Assembly (NCBI GenBank): GCA_016186995.1
Contig: JACPKQ010000009.1
Span: forward strand, 1-59,644
Reading direction: 5' to 3'
Length of the DNA stretch: 59,644 bases
Source: Deltaproteobacteria bacterium
GTDB lineage: Bacteria > Bdellovibrionota > JACOXK01
The position numbers were made by a program, and so were the translations under genes. Under the pieces are notes generated by a model. The model made no database searches. It saw only the letters and a list, made by a program, of their open reading frames with translations, and was not told the origin of the DNA. The first letter of the stretch is position 1. Each line of letters starts with the position of its first letter. Of the stretch, positions 18,902 to 59,644 are shown in pieces.

Positions 18902-18998
18902 GTCATTGCGAGTGAAACGAAGCAATCTCTTATAATTGCAATAACAATTATAAGGTAACATTAGCATGTTGGGATCGCCACGCTGCGCTCGCGATGAC
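18902..18998. repeat. Family B element, full length
   Basis: GTCATTGCGAGTGAAACGAAG ... ATCGCCACGCTGCGCTCGCGATGAC, with an inner stem (CTTATAATTG / CAATTATAAG). It lies between the kinase and PilZ genes. Confidence 0.8.
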
Positions 18999-52298: not shown

Positions 52299-52325
52299 CT
52301 AGATTCCCGTTTACACGGGAATGAC
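52299..52325. repeat. Family C element between grpE and dnaK
   Basis: CTAGATTCCCGTTTACACGG then GAATGAC; it ends 5 bp before the dnaK ribosome site. Confidence 0.8.
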
Positions 52326-52344
52326 AGGGAGAGGAGGATTTATT

Positions 52345-54273
52345 ATGGGAAAAATTATAGGAATTGACTTAGGTACAACAAATTCATGTGTTGCTATTAT
52401 GGAAGGTGGTGAGCCCAAAGTTATCACAAATTCTGAAGGAGCACGCACTACCCCCTCTATAGTTGGTTTTCAAGATGGGGAAAAACGTCTTGTGGGTCAA
52501 ACAGCCAAAAGACAAGCCATCACCAATCCAGAAAGAACTATCTTCGCTGTTAAAAGACTGATTGGAAGAAGATTTGCTTCCCCTGAGGTTAAAAAAGATA
52601 TCAAACTGTGCCCTTATAAAATTGTGGAAGCCCACAATGGAGATGCATGGGTTCAAGTTAATGGTGCACAATATAACCCTTCCCAAATTTCAGCTTTTAT
52701 ACTTCAAAAAATGAAACAAACAGCTGAAGATTATTTAGGTGAAAAAGTAACAGAAGCAGTTATTACTGTTCCAGCTTATTTCAATGAAAGTCAAAGACGA
52801 GCTACTAAAGATGCAGGTAAAATTGCAGGGCTTGAGGTCAAACGCATTATTAATGAACCTACTGCTGCTGCCCTTGCTTACGGTCTTGATAAAAAAGGAG
52901 ACAAAAAAATAGCTGTTTTTGATTTAGGTGGCGGTACTTTTGATATTTCTATCTTAGAACTGGGTGAAGGTGTTTTTGAAGTTAAAGCTACCAATGGAGA
53001 TACTTTCTTAGGTGGTGAAGACTTTGATCAAAAAATTATTGATTATCTTATTGCTGAATTTAAAAGAGACCAAGGCATTAATTTAAGCACTGATAAAATG
53101 GCAGTACAACGCCTCAAAGAAGCTTCAGAAAAAGCAAAAATGGAGCTCTCTTCTGCAACAGAAACAGAAATTAATCTTCCTTTTATTACAGCAGATCAAT
53201 CAGGTCCTAAACACCTCGCTATCAAATTGACTCGTGCTAAACTTGAAAGCCTGGTTGAAGATCTGATTCAAAAACTTGTAGCTCCTTGTGAAACAGCCGT
53301 TAAAGACTCAGGTATTTCAAAATCAGAACTTCATGAAGTTATTCTTGTAGGTGGTATGACTCGCATGCCTAAAGTTCAAGCTAAAGTAAAAGAAATTTTC
53401 GGTAAAGAACCTCACAAAGGGGTCAACCCTGATGAAGTGGTTGCCGTTGGAGCCGCTATTCAAGCAGGGGTTCTCCAAGGAGATGTTAAAGACGTTCTTC
53501 TCTTAGATGTCACACCTCTTTCTTTAGGAATTGAAACCTTAGGTGGTATTTCAACAAAACTTATTGAGAAAAACACAACTATTCCTACAAAGAAAAGCCA
53601 AGTTTTCTCAACGGCAGCAGATAATCAACCTGCCGTTTCTATTCATGTTCTTCAAGGAGAGCGTGAAATGGCAAGCGATAACAAGAGCCTGGGTCGATTT
53701 GAACTTGTAGGAATACCCCCTGCACCTCGTGGCATTCCTCAAATTGAAGTCGCCTTTGATATTGATGCCAATGGTATTCTCCACGTTCATGCTAAAGACC
53801 TAGGAACGGGTAAAGAACAATCTATTCAAATTAAAGCTTCTGGTGGCTTATCAGATGAAGAAATCGAAAAAATGGTTAAAAATGCTGAAGCTCATGCCTC
53901 AGAAGACAAGAAGAAAAGAGAATTGGCTACAGCTCGTAATAATGCAGACAGCTTAGTTTACTCATCTGAAAAAACACTCAAAGAAAATAAAGATAAAGTT
54001 GATAAAGATACACAGAAAAAAATTGAGGAAGCCATCCAAAAAACTAAAAAAGCTTTAGAGGGTAATAATGTTGAGGATATTAATAAAGCTCAGGAGGAAC
54101 TTGCTCAAGCTTCTAATAAATTAGCTGAGCAAATCTATAAAGAAGCTGCTCAAAAACAAGCAAAAGAGCAACAATCAGGCTCTGGTACTCATCAACCTAA
54201 AGATAAGAAAAATGATGATAATAACAAAAAAAATGATGATGATGTTGTCGATGCAGAGTATAAAGAAGTTTGA
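52345..54273 (+). CDS. dnaK: Chaperone DnaK (Hsp70)
   Basis: 642 aa. [18 protein letters not shown] at the N-terminus, [14 protein letters not shown], the linker [18 protein letters not shown] and the C-terminal lid with the acidic tail ending [11 protein letters not shown] (a variant of the EEVD-like end). ATG 52345 has AGGAGG; the frame to 52321 runs into a repeat. It is followed after 15 bp by dnaJ. Confidence 0.97.
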
Positions 54274-54288
54274 GGAGTTTAATTACCT

Positions 54289-57200
54289 GTGGCTTCAAAA
54301 AGAGATTATTATGAAGTATTGGGAATTGCTAAAGATACCTCTCCACAGGAGATAAAAAAAGCTTACCGTAAACTTGCCCTTAAATATCACCCGGATAAAA
54401 ATTCGGGTGATAAAGAGGCTGAAGAAAAATTTAAAGAAGTTTCAGAAGCCTACGAAGTTCTCTCAAATCCTCAGAAAAAACAAGCTTATGACCAATTTGG
54501 CCATGCAGGCACTCAAGGGGGTGCCCAAGGTTTTGGTGGTTTTGGAGGAGGCTTTGAAGGGTTCGGTGGGTTTGAAAATATTTTTGGGGATCTTTTTGGA
54601 GATCAATTCTCTGACCTCTTCGGGGGTGGAAGAACCAGAAGAAGGGGTGCTGGGCGAGGAGCTGACCTACGATATAATCTTAATATCTCCTTTGAAGAAG
54701 CTGCGTTTGGCACAGACATCGAAATAGAAGTTCCTAAAGAAACATCCTGTCATACCTGTCAAGGAAGTGGGGCAAAACCAGGTACAAAACCAGAGGTGTG
54801 TCCTAACTGTAACGGAACAGGAGAATCTCACTTCCAACAAGGATTTTTTACTATTGCGCGAACGTGTAGCCGTTGCCAAGGCGAAGGCACCTTCGTCAAA
54901 TATCATTGTACCACCTGCAATGGCAAAGGAACTCAAAAAAGAAGTCATAAACTCTCAGTCAAAATCCCTGCAGGTATCGACTCTGGACAACGTTTGAAAC
55001 TTCGTGGCGAAGGAGAGGCAGGAACCCGAGGTGGTGGAGCTGGAGATCTTTACGTTGTTATAAACGTTTCAGAACATGACCTTTTTAAAAGAGAGGGTGC
55101 TGATATTTATTGCACTTTTCCTGTTACTTTTTCTCAAGCTGTTTTAGGAATAGAGGTAGATGTTCCAACACTTTCTGGAAAAATTAAAATGAAGATACCA
55201 CCTGGAACACAATCAGGTAAAACATTCCGCTTGAGAGAAAAAGGAATTCAAAAGCTAGGCTCTTATGGAAAAGGAGATCAATTTTTAAAAGTCATTGTTG
55301 AGATTCCAACAAAATTAAATTCAGAACAAAAAGAACTACTTCAACAATTTTCAAAAGCCGGTGGAGAATCTTCAGGCCCTTACCATAAAACTTTTATGGA
55401 TAAAGTAAAAAATCTTTTCTCATCCTTTCTTATTTGTCTCTCACTTTTTGGATGTGCCACAACAACCATTTTAAGAGATGGTAAAGAAGTTTCTTACGAA
55501 GAAGCAGCAGCCAAAGATTACGAAAAAATAATAACAGCTATTCAACAACAAAAGGTGGCAAGAAGTCATCACGAGGATTCTGAAAGAATCCGTGGTGATC
55601 TCGCAACCTTTGGTGATGGGATTGATGAACTTCTCTTACAAATGGATCGTTTTACCTCATCGTTTCCAGAAAGTGAACTCACCGATGATGTTTACACACT
55701 TAAAGGAAATATTTATTTTGATCAAAAACAATTTCAGGCCGCTTCGCTTGCTTATGAAAAAGCCTTAAAACTTCAAGAAAATTCTTTAACTCGCTACCAA
55801 CTTGCTTTTTCTCTTTACCAAAATCAAGAATTTGAAAAAACCAATCAAATCCTTTCAGAACTTGATGAAGATGATCTCGATAAAAAATATTTTATTAAAT
55901 ACCTTTATCTTTATTCAAACTCACTACAACAAGAAGGGCGTTTTTATGATAGCACCCTTACTTACTTAGATCTTCTTAAACAACTCAAAGATGAAAGAAA
56001 TCAATCGCTCATTAAAAATCAAATTGTTGAAAACATAGAAAAAAAACTGGTTCAAGAAGAGCTTGAAAAACTTCTTTCAGACTTTTCTTCTACATTTCCA
56101 AGTGGGCATATTCGTTATAAACTTGCTCTTTTTTCCTACCAAAAAAGAGATTTTGATAAAACCAAAGATTACCTTTCAGATATTTCTGAATCTCACCCCT
56201 ACCACCAGGCAAAGCTTTCTCTTCTTCAGAAACTTGATCAAAGTTTTGATATTAAAAAAAATAGAATTGGAGTACTTCTACCTTTAAGTCATGACAAATA
56301 TAAAGATTTAGCACTCGAAGCTCTTCAAGGTATTGAACTTGCTGCAGGCATCTTTGGTGAAGGTCATGAAAGTGATATTGAACTTATTATTTTAGATACT
56401 CACCAAGAAGAAGAAAATCTGTCACAAAAGGTTGAAGATATGATCTCTCAAGAAAACGTTATTGCTTTCATTGGTGATTTTCTTCCCTCACCCTCTCTTA
56501 CTATCGCTCAAAAATCACAAGCATTAGGTGTTCCAACTATAACCCTTTCTCTTAAGAAAGATTTAGTAGATCAAGGAGAATATATTTTTAGAAATGCAGA
56601 TACTTATCAAGCTCAAACAAGGGCCCTTGCAAAATATGCAACTGAAACCCTCCACTATAAAAAATTTGCTGTTTTATTTCCTGAAAATGATTTTGGAAAA
56701 ACGATGACTTCTACCTTTTGGGATGCCGTTTATGAATACGGAGGTACTATTCAAGGGCTTCAAAGTTATCAGCCAGAGCAGACAGATTTTAGAGATGAAC
56801 TACAAAAATTAACAGGAACCTTTTTCCAATTTGATAGACTTATTGAAAATGAAATGAAAAGACGTCAGCTCGAGGCAGAACTTAAACGCACTCCTCGTTT
56901 TAAAGAAGTTGAGCTTCTCCCTATTGTTGATTTTGATGCTTTATTTATTCCTGAATTTCCAAAAACTTTAGCACAAATTGCACCTCATTTTCGATATGTA
57001 GGTATTGAAGGAACCCCTCTTTTAGGAATTAGCACCTGGAAGTCTCAAAATCTTTTAGAAAAAGCTGGAGAATTTTTAGAAGGCGCTGTTTTTATAGATA
57101 GTTTTTTTGAAGAAAGTTCATCTGCCTTTGTTCAAGAGTTTACAGATCAATTTCAAAAAACATTTCAAAAAAAACCTTCTGTTCTTTCAGCACAAGCTTA

Positions 57201-57396
57201 TGATGCAGCCCACATTCTTATTGAAACCATTCGTACTCAAAACATAGAAACCCGAGAAGAGCTCAAAGAAAATCTCCTTAATATGCCACCTTATATTGGC
57301 GTTACAGGCACCATTAACTTTGGAGAAAATGGTGATGCCAAAAAAGATGTCTTTGTTCTTAAGATTCAAAACAAAAAACTCATTCAAATCAACTAA
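54289..57396 (+). CDS. dnaJ: DnaJ fused in frame to an LpoA-like periplasmic lipoprotein
   Basis: 1035 aa. Residues 1-370 are a complete DnaJ: J domain with HPD ([10 protein letters not shown]), Gly/Phe region, four CxxCxGxG zinc knuckles and the substrate-binding domains, ending [12 protein letters not shown] as other DnaJ proteins do. Without a stop it runs on as [16 protein letters not shown], a lipoprotein signal with cysteine, then TPR-like helices (about 420-640) and a periplasmic-binding-protein fold ([20 protein letters not shown] onwards) as in LpoA/LppC activators. A B element lies at 55565-55628 (residues 426-447). GTG start after GAGGAG. Confidence 0.85.
55565..55628. repeat. Family B element inside the dnaJ-lipoprotein fusion
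   Basis: GTCATCACGAGGATTCTGAA AGAATCCGTGGTGATC and the degraded TTTGGTGATGGGATTGATG half, in frame as [20 protein letters not shown]. Confidence 0.75.
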
Positions 57397-57859: not shown

Positions 57860-57879
57860 ACAGAAAGTAGGAGGTGTTT

Positions 57880-58242
57880 ATGAAAAAGCAAGATGTTCAA
57901 AAATTCAAGAACATCCTAGAGGAACAGAAAAAACGGTTGCTCGAGAGTGTTCAAAAAACCGTCGAAGAAGACCTCAAGCTTCCTACTGAAGATCTCTCTG
58001 ATGAAGTTGATTTAGCTTCCAATGAAATTAACCAATCTATTGCCTTTCGATTAAGAGACAGAGAAAGAGTTCTTCTTCAAAAAATTGAAAGAGCCCTTGA
58101 AAGAATAGAACAGGGGGAATTTGGCGTTTGCGACCAATGCGGTGATGAAATTGAAGTAAAACGTTTAGAAGCCCGTCCTGTGACAACTCTTTGTATTAGT
58201 TGCAAAGAAGAGCAAGAGCAAAAAGAAAAGGCTTACGCTTAA
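57880..58242 (+). CDS. DksA/TraR-family zinc-finger protein
   Basis: 120 aa. A helical N-terminal half is followed by the zinc finger CDQCGDEI ... CISCKEEQE (CxxC-17-CxxC), as in DksA/TraR proteins that bind RNA polymerase. It is closest in layout to DksA-like proteins of about 120 aa (YteA, DksA2) rather than full-length DksA. ATG 57880 has TAGGAGG 4 bases before it. Confidence 0.9.
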   Translation: MKKQDVQKFKNILEEQKKRLLESVQKTVEEDLKLPTEDLSDEVDLASNEINQSIAFRLRDRERVLLQKIERALERIEQGEFGVCDQCGDEIEVKRLEARPVTTLCISCKEEQEQKEKAYA

Positions 58243-58389: not shown

Positions 58390-59644
58390 ATGCTAGATAT
58401 TTATGAAGATCAAACCATCAATATCCCAGAAGACATGCCTCTTATTCCTGTAAGGGATATTGTTGTTTTCCCACAAACCATCCTTCCTCTTTTTGTAGGA
58501 AGAGAATCTTCCATTAAAGCAGTAGAAGCAGCTATGGAAACTGATAAACTCATCTTTTTAGCCTCACAAAAAGATGTTCAAGACGAAAATCCAAAACCTA
58601 ATAAAATTCATAAAACAGGAACCATTGCCATGGTGATGAGGATGAGAAAACATCCTGATGGTAAAATTAAAATTTTAGTTCAGGGTCTCATGAAAGCAAA
58701 ACTCATTAAATACACAAGTGAAAATCCATTCTATAAAGTGAAAGTTGAAAAAATTGAAGAAAAATCTGCAGGGATGACACCTGAAATAGAAGCTCATATT
58801 AGAACCATTAAAGAAAACTTAGAGCAAATTATTGCTCTAGGAAAGGCTCTTTCTCCAGATATACTTATGGTTCTTGATGATATTGATGAGCCCAATAGGA
58901 TTGTAGATCTCATTGCTTCTAATTTGAATCTTAATATAGAAGATGCCCAACACATTTTAGAATCAACCGATGTTAACGAAAAATTAAAAAAAATTAATAC
59001 TATCCTCACAACGGAACTTGAAGTTCTAGCTATGCAATCACGCATTCGCTCTCAAGCTCGAGAAGAAATGAGCCGTTCCCAAAAAGAATATTTCCTCCGT
59101 GAACAAATGAGAGCCATTCGTGGTGAATTAGGAGAAGGTGGTAGCACTGGTGAGTTAGATGAAATGGAAGAGCTTCGAAGTAAAATAGAAGCCTCCCACA
59201 TGCCTGAAGATATTAAAAAAGAAGCTTTAAAACAACTTGTACGACTTGAAAGAATGCACCCTGAGGCTACAGAAGCCTCTATGGCACGTGGTTATTTAGA
59301 ATGGATTATTGAGGTTCCTTGGGGACAATCCACTCAAGATAACTTGGATATTAAACAAGCAAAAAAAATCCTTGATGAAGATCATTTTGACCTTACAAAA
59401 GTAAAAGAAAGAATATTAGAATTTTTAGCTGTTCTCAAACTTAAAAAACAAACCAAAGGCCCTATTCTTTGCTTTGTGGGTCCTCCAGGGGTTGGAAAAA
59501 CCTCGTTAGGTAAATCCATTGCACACGCCATGGGAAGAAAATTTGTACGTATGTCCTTAGGGGGCATGAAAGACGAAGCAGAAGTTCGAGGGCACAGAAG
59601 AGCTTATGTAGGTGCTCTTCCAGGTAGAATCATTCAAGGTTTAA
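58390..59644 (+). CDS. lon: Lon protease, N-terminal part (runs off the window)
   Basis: ATP-dependent serine protease. The first 418 residues are present: the LON substrate-binding domain (MPLIPVRDIVVFPQTILPLF), the helical region with SRSQKEYFLREQMRAIRGELG, and the start of the AAA+ module with Walker A CFVGPPGVGKTSLGKSIA and RMSLGGMKDEAEVRGHRRAYVGALPG. The catalytic Ser-Lys part would lie beyond 59644. AGAAAG precedes the ATG. Confidence 0.96.
   Translation, partial: MLDIYEDQTINIPEDMPLIPVRDIVVFPQTILPLFVGRESSIKAVEAAMETDKLIFLASQKDVQDENPKPNKIHKTGTIAMVMRMRKHPDGKIKILVQGLMKAKLIKYTSENPFYKVKVEKIEEKSAGMTPEIEAHIRTIKENLEQIIALGKALSPDILMVLDDIDEPNRIVDLIASNLNLNIEDAQHILESTDVNEKLKKINTILTTELEVLAMQSRIRSQAREEMSRSQKEYFLREQMRAIRGELGEGGSTGELDEMEELRSKIEASHMPEDIKKEALKQLVRLERMHPEATEASMARGYLEWIIEVPWGQSTQDNLDIKQAKKILDEDHFDLTKVKERILEFLAVLKLKKQTKGPILCFVGPPGVGKTSLGKSIAHAMGRKFVRMSLGGMKDEAEVRGHRRAYVGALPGRIIQGL

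Follow-up and report, generated by a model that had tools for sequence, protein, structure and literature searches.

The dnaJ locus and the two parts of its product

The window, i.e. the whole stretch of 59,644 nucleotides that was analysed, contains directly downstream of dnaK a single gene whose frame joins a dnaJ sequence to the sequence of a predicted lipoprotein. All the features listed below lie on the forward strand. The last two identities were assigned from the sequence and are marked as presumed.

52321..54273 (+): dnaK, directly upstream of the fusion with a gap of 15 nt (open reading frame list and synteny)
54272..54277 (+): Shine-Dalgarno sequence GAGGAG of the fusion gene, duplex of -8.8 kcal/mol
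54289..57396 (+): fusion gene dnaJ::lipoprotein, GTG start, 1035 codons, identified by domain matches
54289..55419 (+): DnaJ part, codons 1-377, with J domain and HPD motif, G/F region, four CxxCxGxG motifs, C-terminal domain and C-terminal helix
55378..55446 (+): shared segment, codons 364-386, a single predicted helix that extends from the C-terminal helix of DnaJ into the hydrophobic core
55396..55398 (+): in-frame ATG (Met370), proposed as an internal start, without ribosome site; Tyr in the related genome G001
55414..55452 (+): hydrophobic h-region of the lipoprotein signal, Kyte-Doolittle 11-mer value of 2.46
55453..55455 (+): lipobox Cys389, predicted point of lipidation and LspA cleavage, invariant in 20/20 homologues
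55687..55782 (+): TPR_1 repeat (residues 467-498) in the N-terminal helical region of the lipoprotein
56263..57372 (+): Peripla_BP_6, periplasmic binding-protein fold (residues 659-1028)
57874..58242 (+): presumably a DksA/TraR-like zinc-finger gene, conserved downstream neighbour
58390..59643 (+): presumably lon, also a conserved neighbour downstream, truncated at the end of the window

The preliminary description of this DNA had stated that the dnaJ frame runs past its usual end into a lipoprotein, and this is borne out by the open frame as well as by the domain matches of both halves. The open reading frame 54289..57396 encodes 1035 amino acids with no internal stop. Beyond the end of DnaJ, 656 codons are free of stops, which by base composition has a probability of about 1e-21 and excludes a chance origin of the open stretch; the remaining two forward frames contain 25 and 70 stops past the same point.

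The NCBIfam model PRK10767 matches residues 3-379 (E 1e-154). The J domain (PF00226) is found at 54304-54492 (E 1e-29), where the HPD motif is included in the sequence KYHPDKN, and the zinc region PF00684 with four CxxCxGxG motifs and the domain PF01556 (DnaJ_C) are also present in the window protein. The elements that define a type I DnaJ, namely a J domain with HPD, the four zinc motifs and DnaJ_C, are thus all found. By its domain content, the region 3-379 is a complete type I DnaJ, for which a co-chaperone activity with DnaK is predicted.

The second part displays the architecture of LpoA/LppC, with a TPR-like N-part (TPR_1) and a periplasmic-binding fold (Peripla_BP_6). Peripla_BP_6 is matched by all 20 homologues, and LppC (PF04348) by 14 of them at E 0.01. 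The fused copy of G001, a genome of the same family, passes the LppC cut-off (36.8 vs 28.8 bits), as do the homologues of the genomes G002, G003 and G034, whereas the window copy itself falls below it. The earlier label "LpoA-like" is therefore reasonable, with the G001 copy in its favour and the window copy against it. Genes for class A penicillin-binding proteins (PBPs) occur in both fused genomes, and a protein search saw no second LpoA-like gene in either. Judging from the sequence, an LpoA-like role of the lipoprotein half is likely. A single-sequence AlphaFold model of this half had a pLDDT of 37 and was discarded.

The window also contains a family of palindromic repeats, GATTGCTTCGCTACGCTCGCAATGA, represented by 9 copies of 25 bp each within 3 mismatches (none are expected by chance), at positions 18903, 25307, 37648, 37690, 38822, 39182, 40133, 43484 and 57520. 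One copy falls in the interval that separates the fusion from the DksA-like gene. Some proteins, for example GrpE and the products of open reading frames of G001, seem to carry insertions of repeat-related peptides (ARND, CHPELARGS).

Distribution of the fusion and its unfused relatives

A protein search was carried out in 39 related genomes, in addition to the whole class (8 genomes). The same fusion was detected in G001, which belongs to a different genus and is the one further genome of this family in the set. The comparison with related genomes, set in advance as a test, thus indicates that the fusion is not unique to one assembly. The G001 frame comprises 931 codons; its DnaJ is 71% identical to that of the window and its lipoprotein part about 46%. 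The junction of G001 reads SFYDKVKNIFVLLLTSFTLLH/CAST (here and below the slash precedes the lipobox Cys), and in both fusions 33 nt separate the last Phe of the DnaJ helix from this Cys. The two genomes share the synteny hrcA, grpE, dnaK, fusion, DksA-like gene and lon. In the DnaJ tail, 14 of the 24 codons compared differ between the window and G001 at position 3, vs 7 and 6 at positions 1 and 2, and this third-position bias indicates that the tail segment is translated and constrained in the fusion frame.

No further fused member was found: the class is composed of only 8 genomes, and a contig scan returned one distant, unfused homologue. When 369 genomes of the phylum were searched for DnaJ, the window genome and G001 alone had frames longer than about 410 codons among the approximately 150 matches listed, about 110 weaker ones being left out. 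From these comparisons we conclude that the fusion is real and conserved in one family, and is not an artefact, with two genomes as support. That an assembly or sequencing error deleted a dnaJ stop is extremely improbable: the window genome is indeed a draft, but the independent assembly of another genus has the identical junction geometry. Frameshifting or slippage at the A-run GTAAAAAAT of the shared segment was also considered and rejected, as the run differs in G001 and the shifted frames have no close-by stop.

Across most of the phylum, the sister family f2 included, dnaJ and the lipoprotein gene are adjacent yet separate. Of the 18 loci examined in the phylum at which the lipoprotein gene stands alone, 16 have dnaJ immediately upstream, and the two genes overlap in 11 of these 16, by 4 nt in eight cases (ATGA/GTGA type) and by 8-22 nt in three. 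In the genus g6 (L008:1219-1237, L013:1351-1372), dnaJ enters the lipoprotein gene by 19-22 nt in another frame, the usual overlap being 4 nt. The distance from Phe to Cys in f2 is longer than the 33 nt of the fusions, with 58 nt in G002, 71 nt in G003 and 56 nt in G007. One short deletion, of 25 nt if the layout of G002 is taken as the starting point, would eliminate both the dnaJ stop and the lipoprotein start and would join the frames. The locus shows in this way a route from overlapping genes to a polyprotein, the unfused and overlapping state being preserved in sister genomes.

The shared segment and the fate of the product

In a single-sequence structure model of the junction, codons 364-386 form one continuous helix, with a pLDDT of about 70-80 that corresponds to modest confidence. 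The hydrophobicity of the h-region (2.46, Kyte-Doolittle 11-mer) compares with a range of 2.35-3.35 in stand-alone relatives, and the lipobox Cys is kept in all 20 homologues, both fused and unfused. The features of a bacterial lipoprotein signal, i.e. a charged n-region, a hydrophobic core and a lipobox Cys, are therefore present, except that the signal has no start of its own: it sits after 369 DnaJ codons, with no conserved internal start. As proposed, the DnaJ C-terminal helix doubles as the n-region of the signal, whose lipobox Cys is at codon 389. The lipobox of the window genome is LFG/CA, with an ordinary Gly at -1. That of G001 is LLH/CA, where the His at -1 departs from the common lipobox pattern and might prevent LspA cleavage. 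The sequence LTH/C is also found in the stand-alone, Met-started relatives G009, G017 and G024, which makes a His at -1 plausible in lipoboxes of this phylum.

The preliminary description had offered two routes of production, a protein spanning the membrane or a separate lipoprotein started at 55396, and had remarked that no ribosome site precedes this ATG. The remark holds, since the anti-SD duplex at 55396 (-2.0 kcal/mol) is reached by 40% of random positions; the median is -5.2 for the window genes and the dnaJ start has -8.8. In this genome, 53% of the tested genes have a duplex of -5 kcal/mol or better vs 13% of random sites. The route itself found no support. The production of two proteins, the full-length fusion and a lipoprotein started at 55396, has in its favour an ATG that is in frame and gives a textbook-looking signal, but we consider it improbable, given the missing ribosome site and the lack of conservation of Met370, which is Tyr in G001 and Leu of the DnaJ helix in f2. 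Such differences are expected at a variable residue of the DnaJ helix, and in the sister genomes the position is not an old start codon. The G001 junction contains neither ATG nor GTG in frame. The only TTG that it has near the signal comes three codons ahead of the Cys, which is too late to start a signal. Further upstream there is one candidate, a TTG at codon 346, but its duplex is weak (-3.1) and the window has no equivalent. The weak duplex and the G001 junction rule out 55396 as a conserved mechanism, and in the absence of a conserved internal start the simplest reading is that the lipoprotein arises solely as the C-terminal portion of DnaJ.

A third route, which had not been named, is a polyprotein processed by signal peptidase, and it gives the best fit to the conserved Cys. 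The invariance of this residue (20/20) suggests lipidation by Lgt and cleavage by LspA, which is encoded in both fused genomes. We favour, with a confidence somewhat above even, a family-specific fusion that yields one precursor with an internal lipoprotein signal, which is lipidated and cleaved by LspA into two proteins. The ribosome would make DnaJ first, and its folded body would remain in the cytoplasm. The positively charged C-terminal helix of DnaJ would then lead into the hydrophobic stretch, acting as an internal Sec signal with an N-in, C-out orientation. Lgt would lipidate the conserved Cys and signal peptidase II (LspA) would cut before it. The cut would free the LpoA-like half, which would face the periplasm like any ordinary lipoprotein, and DnaJ would keep a hydrophobic C-terminal tail lodged in the inner membrane. 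The only full-length DnaJ would be tethered to the membrane, at least at first, and would be made in a strict 1:1 amount with the lipoprotein.

The spanning protein of the preliminary description keeps a smaller share of probability, and we regard it as rather unlikely. It would be an uncleaved transmembrane fusion, with DnaJ in the cytoplasm, the LpoA-like part in the periplasm and the old signal as anchor, so that the state of the envelope would be physically linked to Hsp70 activity. The single frame in both genera, the predicted helix unbroken from the DnaJ tail into the hydrophobic stretch and the His at -1 in G001, which may weaken LspA cleavage, are consistent with it. On the other hand, the invariant Cys and a lipobox typical of this phylum argue for the retention of lipidation and cleavage. 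Moreover, LpoA of Escherichia coli is located in the outer membrane, a site out of reach for an LpoA-like protein that stays in the inner membrane.

In the cleaved and the uncleaved models alike, the only full-length DnaJ would start out attached to the membrane, and the fusion thus probably ties it to the inner membrane. Besides the fusion, no full-length DnaJ was found in either fused genome; these two genomes are incomplete (93% and 89%) and a second dnaJ could be missing from them. More tentatively, and with some doubt, the whole family may have as its only full-length DnaJ a membrane-spanning or membrane-tailed protein, in which one segment serves as chaperone helix and lipoprotein signal and couples Hsp70 to the export of envelope lipoproteins or to cell-wall synthesis. 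The tie between Hsp40 and cell-wall control that had been put forward is one that we only infer.

Other J proteins were observed in these genomes. Apart from the fusion, the one J-domain match in both fused genomes is a protein of 128 amino acids (L046:2128-2514 and L047:1804-2190), which has a hydrophobic stretch at its N-terminal end and the J domain at its C-terminal end and is unmatched in the sister family. The unfused sister genome G002 encodes a protein of 1042 amino acids (L048:30-3158, G002:C8) with a J domain in its C-terminal half. A tandem pair of LspA genes is present in both fused genomes (L044:3764-4758, G000:C15, in the genome of the window; G001:C78:38776-39704), and is adjoined by an lgt-like gene in the window's genome. 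The sister-family genomes with an LspA match have one LspA each. The second LspA was rejected as a mark of special processing, as tandem pairs also occur in the family f4, where dnaJ and the lipoprotein gene are unfused.

Comparison with known systems

Gene fusions and polyproteins with an internal signal are already known, and it is the pair of partners that is unusual here. In the part of the literature covered, we found no description of a DnaJ joined to a lipoprotein via one shared helix, and no documented LspA cut after a cytoplasmic domain of 388 residues. DnaJ ranks with the most highly conserved soluble chaperones, and its permanent joining to an exported lipoprotein was not to be expected. 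The fusion makes it possible to test clearly whether a signal behind a large cytoplasmic protein can be processed by Lgt and LspA.

As in the type I DnaJ of the dnaK-dnaJ operon, all domains are found in order in a single full-length copy beside dnaK. The difference is that no stop ends the DnaJ part of the fusion: its C-terminal helix passes into a lipoprotein signal, followed by a predicted exported part of 647 residues. With LpoA/LppC, the penicillin-binding-protein activator lipoprotein, the second half shares the lipobox, the TPR-like helical N-part and the C-part with the periplasmic-binding fold. In contrast to LpoA/LppC, it is here the C-terminal part of a DnaJ, its window copy is below the LppC cut-off, and PBP activation is at most predicted.

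The cytochrome b/c1 FbcH of Bradyrhizobium comprises two proteins in one frame, with an internal signal between them and a cut by signal peptidase. The dnaJ fusion would likewise be a one-frame polyprotein with an internal signal, its cleavage being proposed. FbcH joins a membrane protein and a periplasmic protein, whereas the dnaJ fusion links a soluble cytoplasmic chaperone to its partner by way of a lipobox (LspA).

DjlA of E. coli exposes a J domain at the cytoplasmic face of the inner membrane by means of an N-terminal anchor and is linked to the Rcs envelope stress response (PMC11709261). Both its J domain and its membrane helix are reported to be necessary for the induction of the Rcs response, and the same study itself found that the MalF anchor can substitute for the DjlA helix (PMC11709261). 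The J domain of the fusion is proposed to have the same position, on the cytoplasmic side of this membrane. DjlA differs by its N-terminal anchor and by the absence of the DnaJ substrate-binding domain, whereas the predicted anchor of the fusion is C-terminal to DnaJ and is followed by a large periplasmic part.
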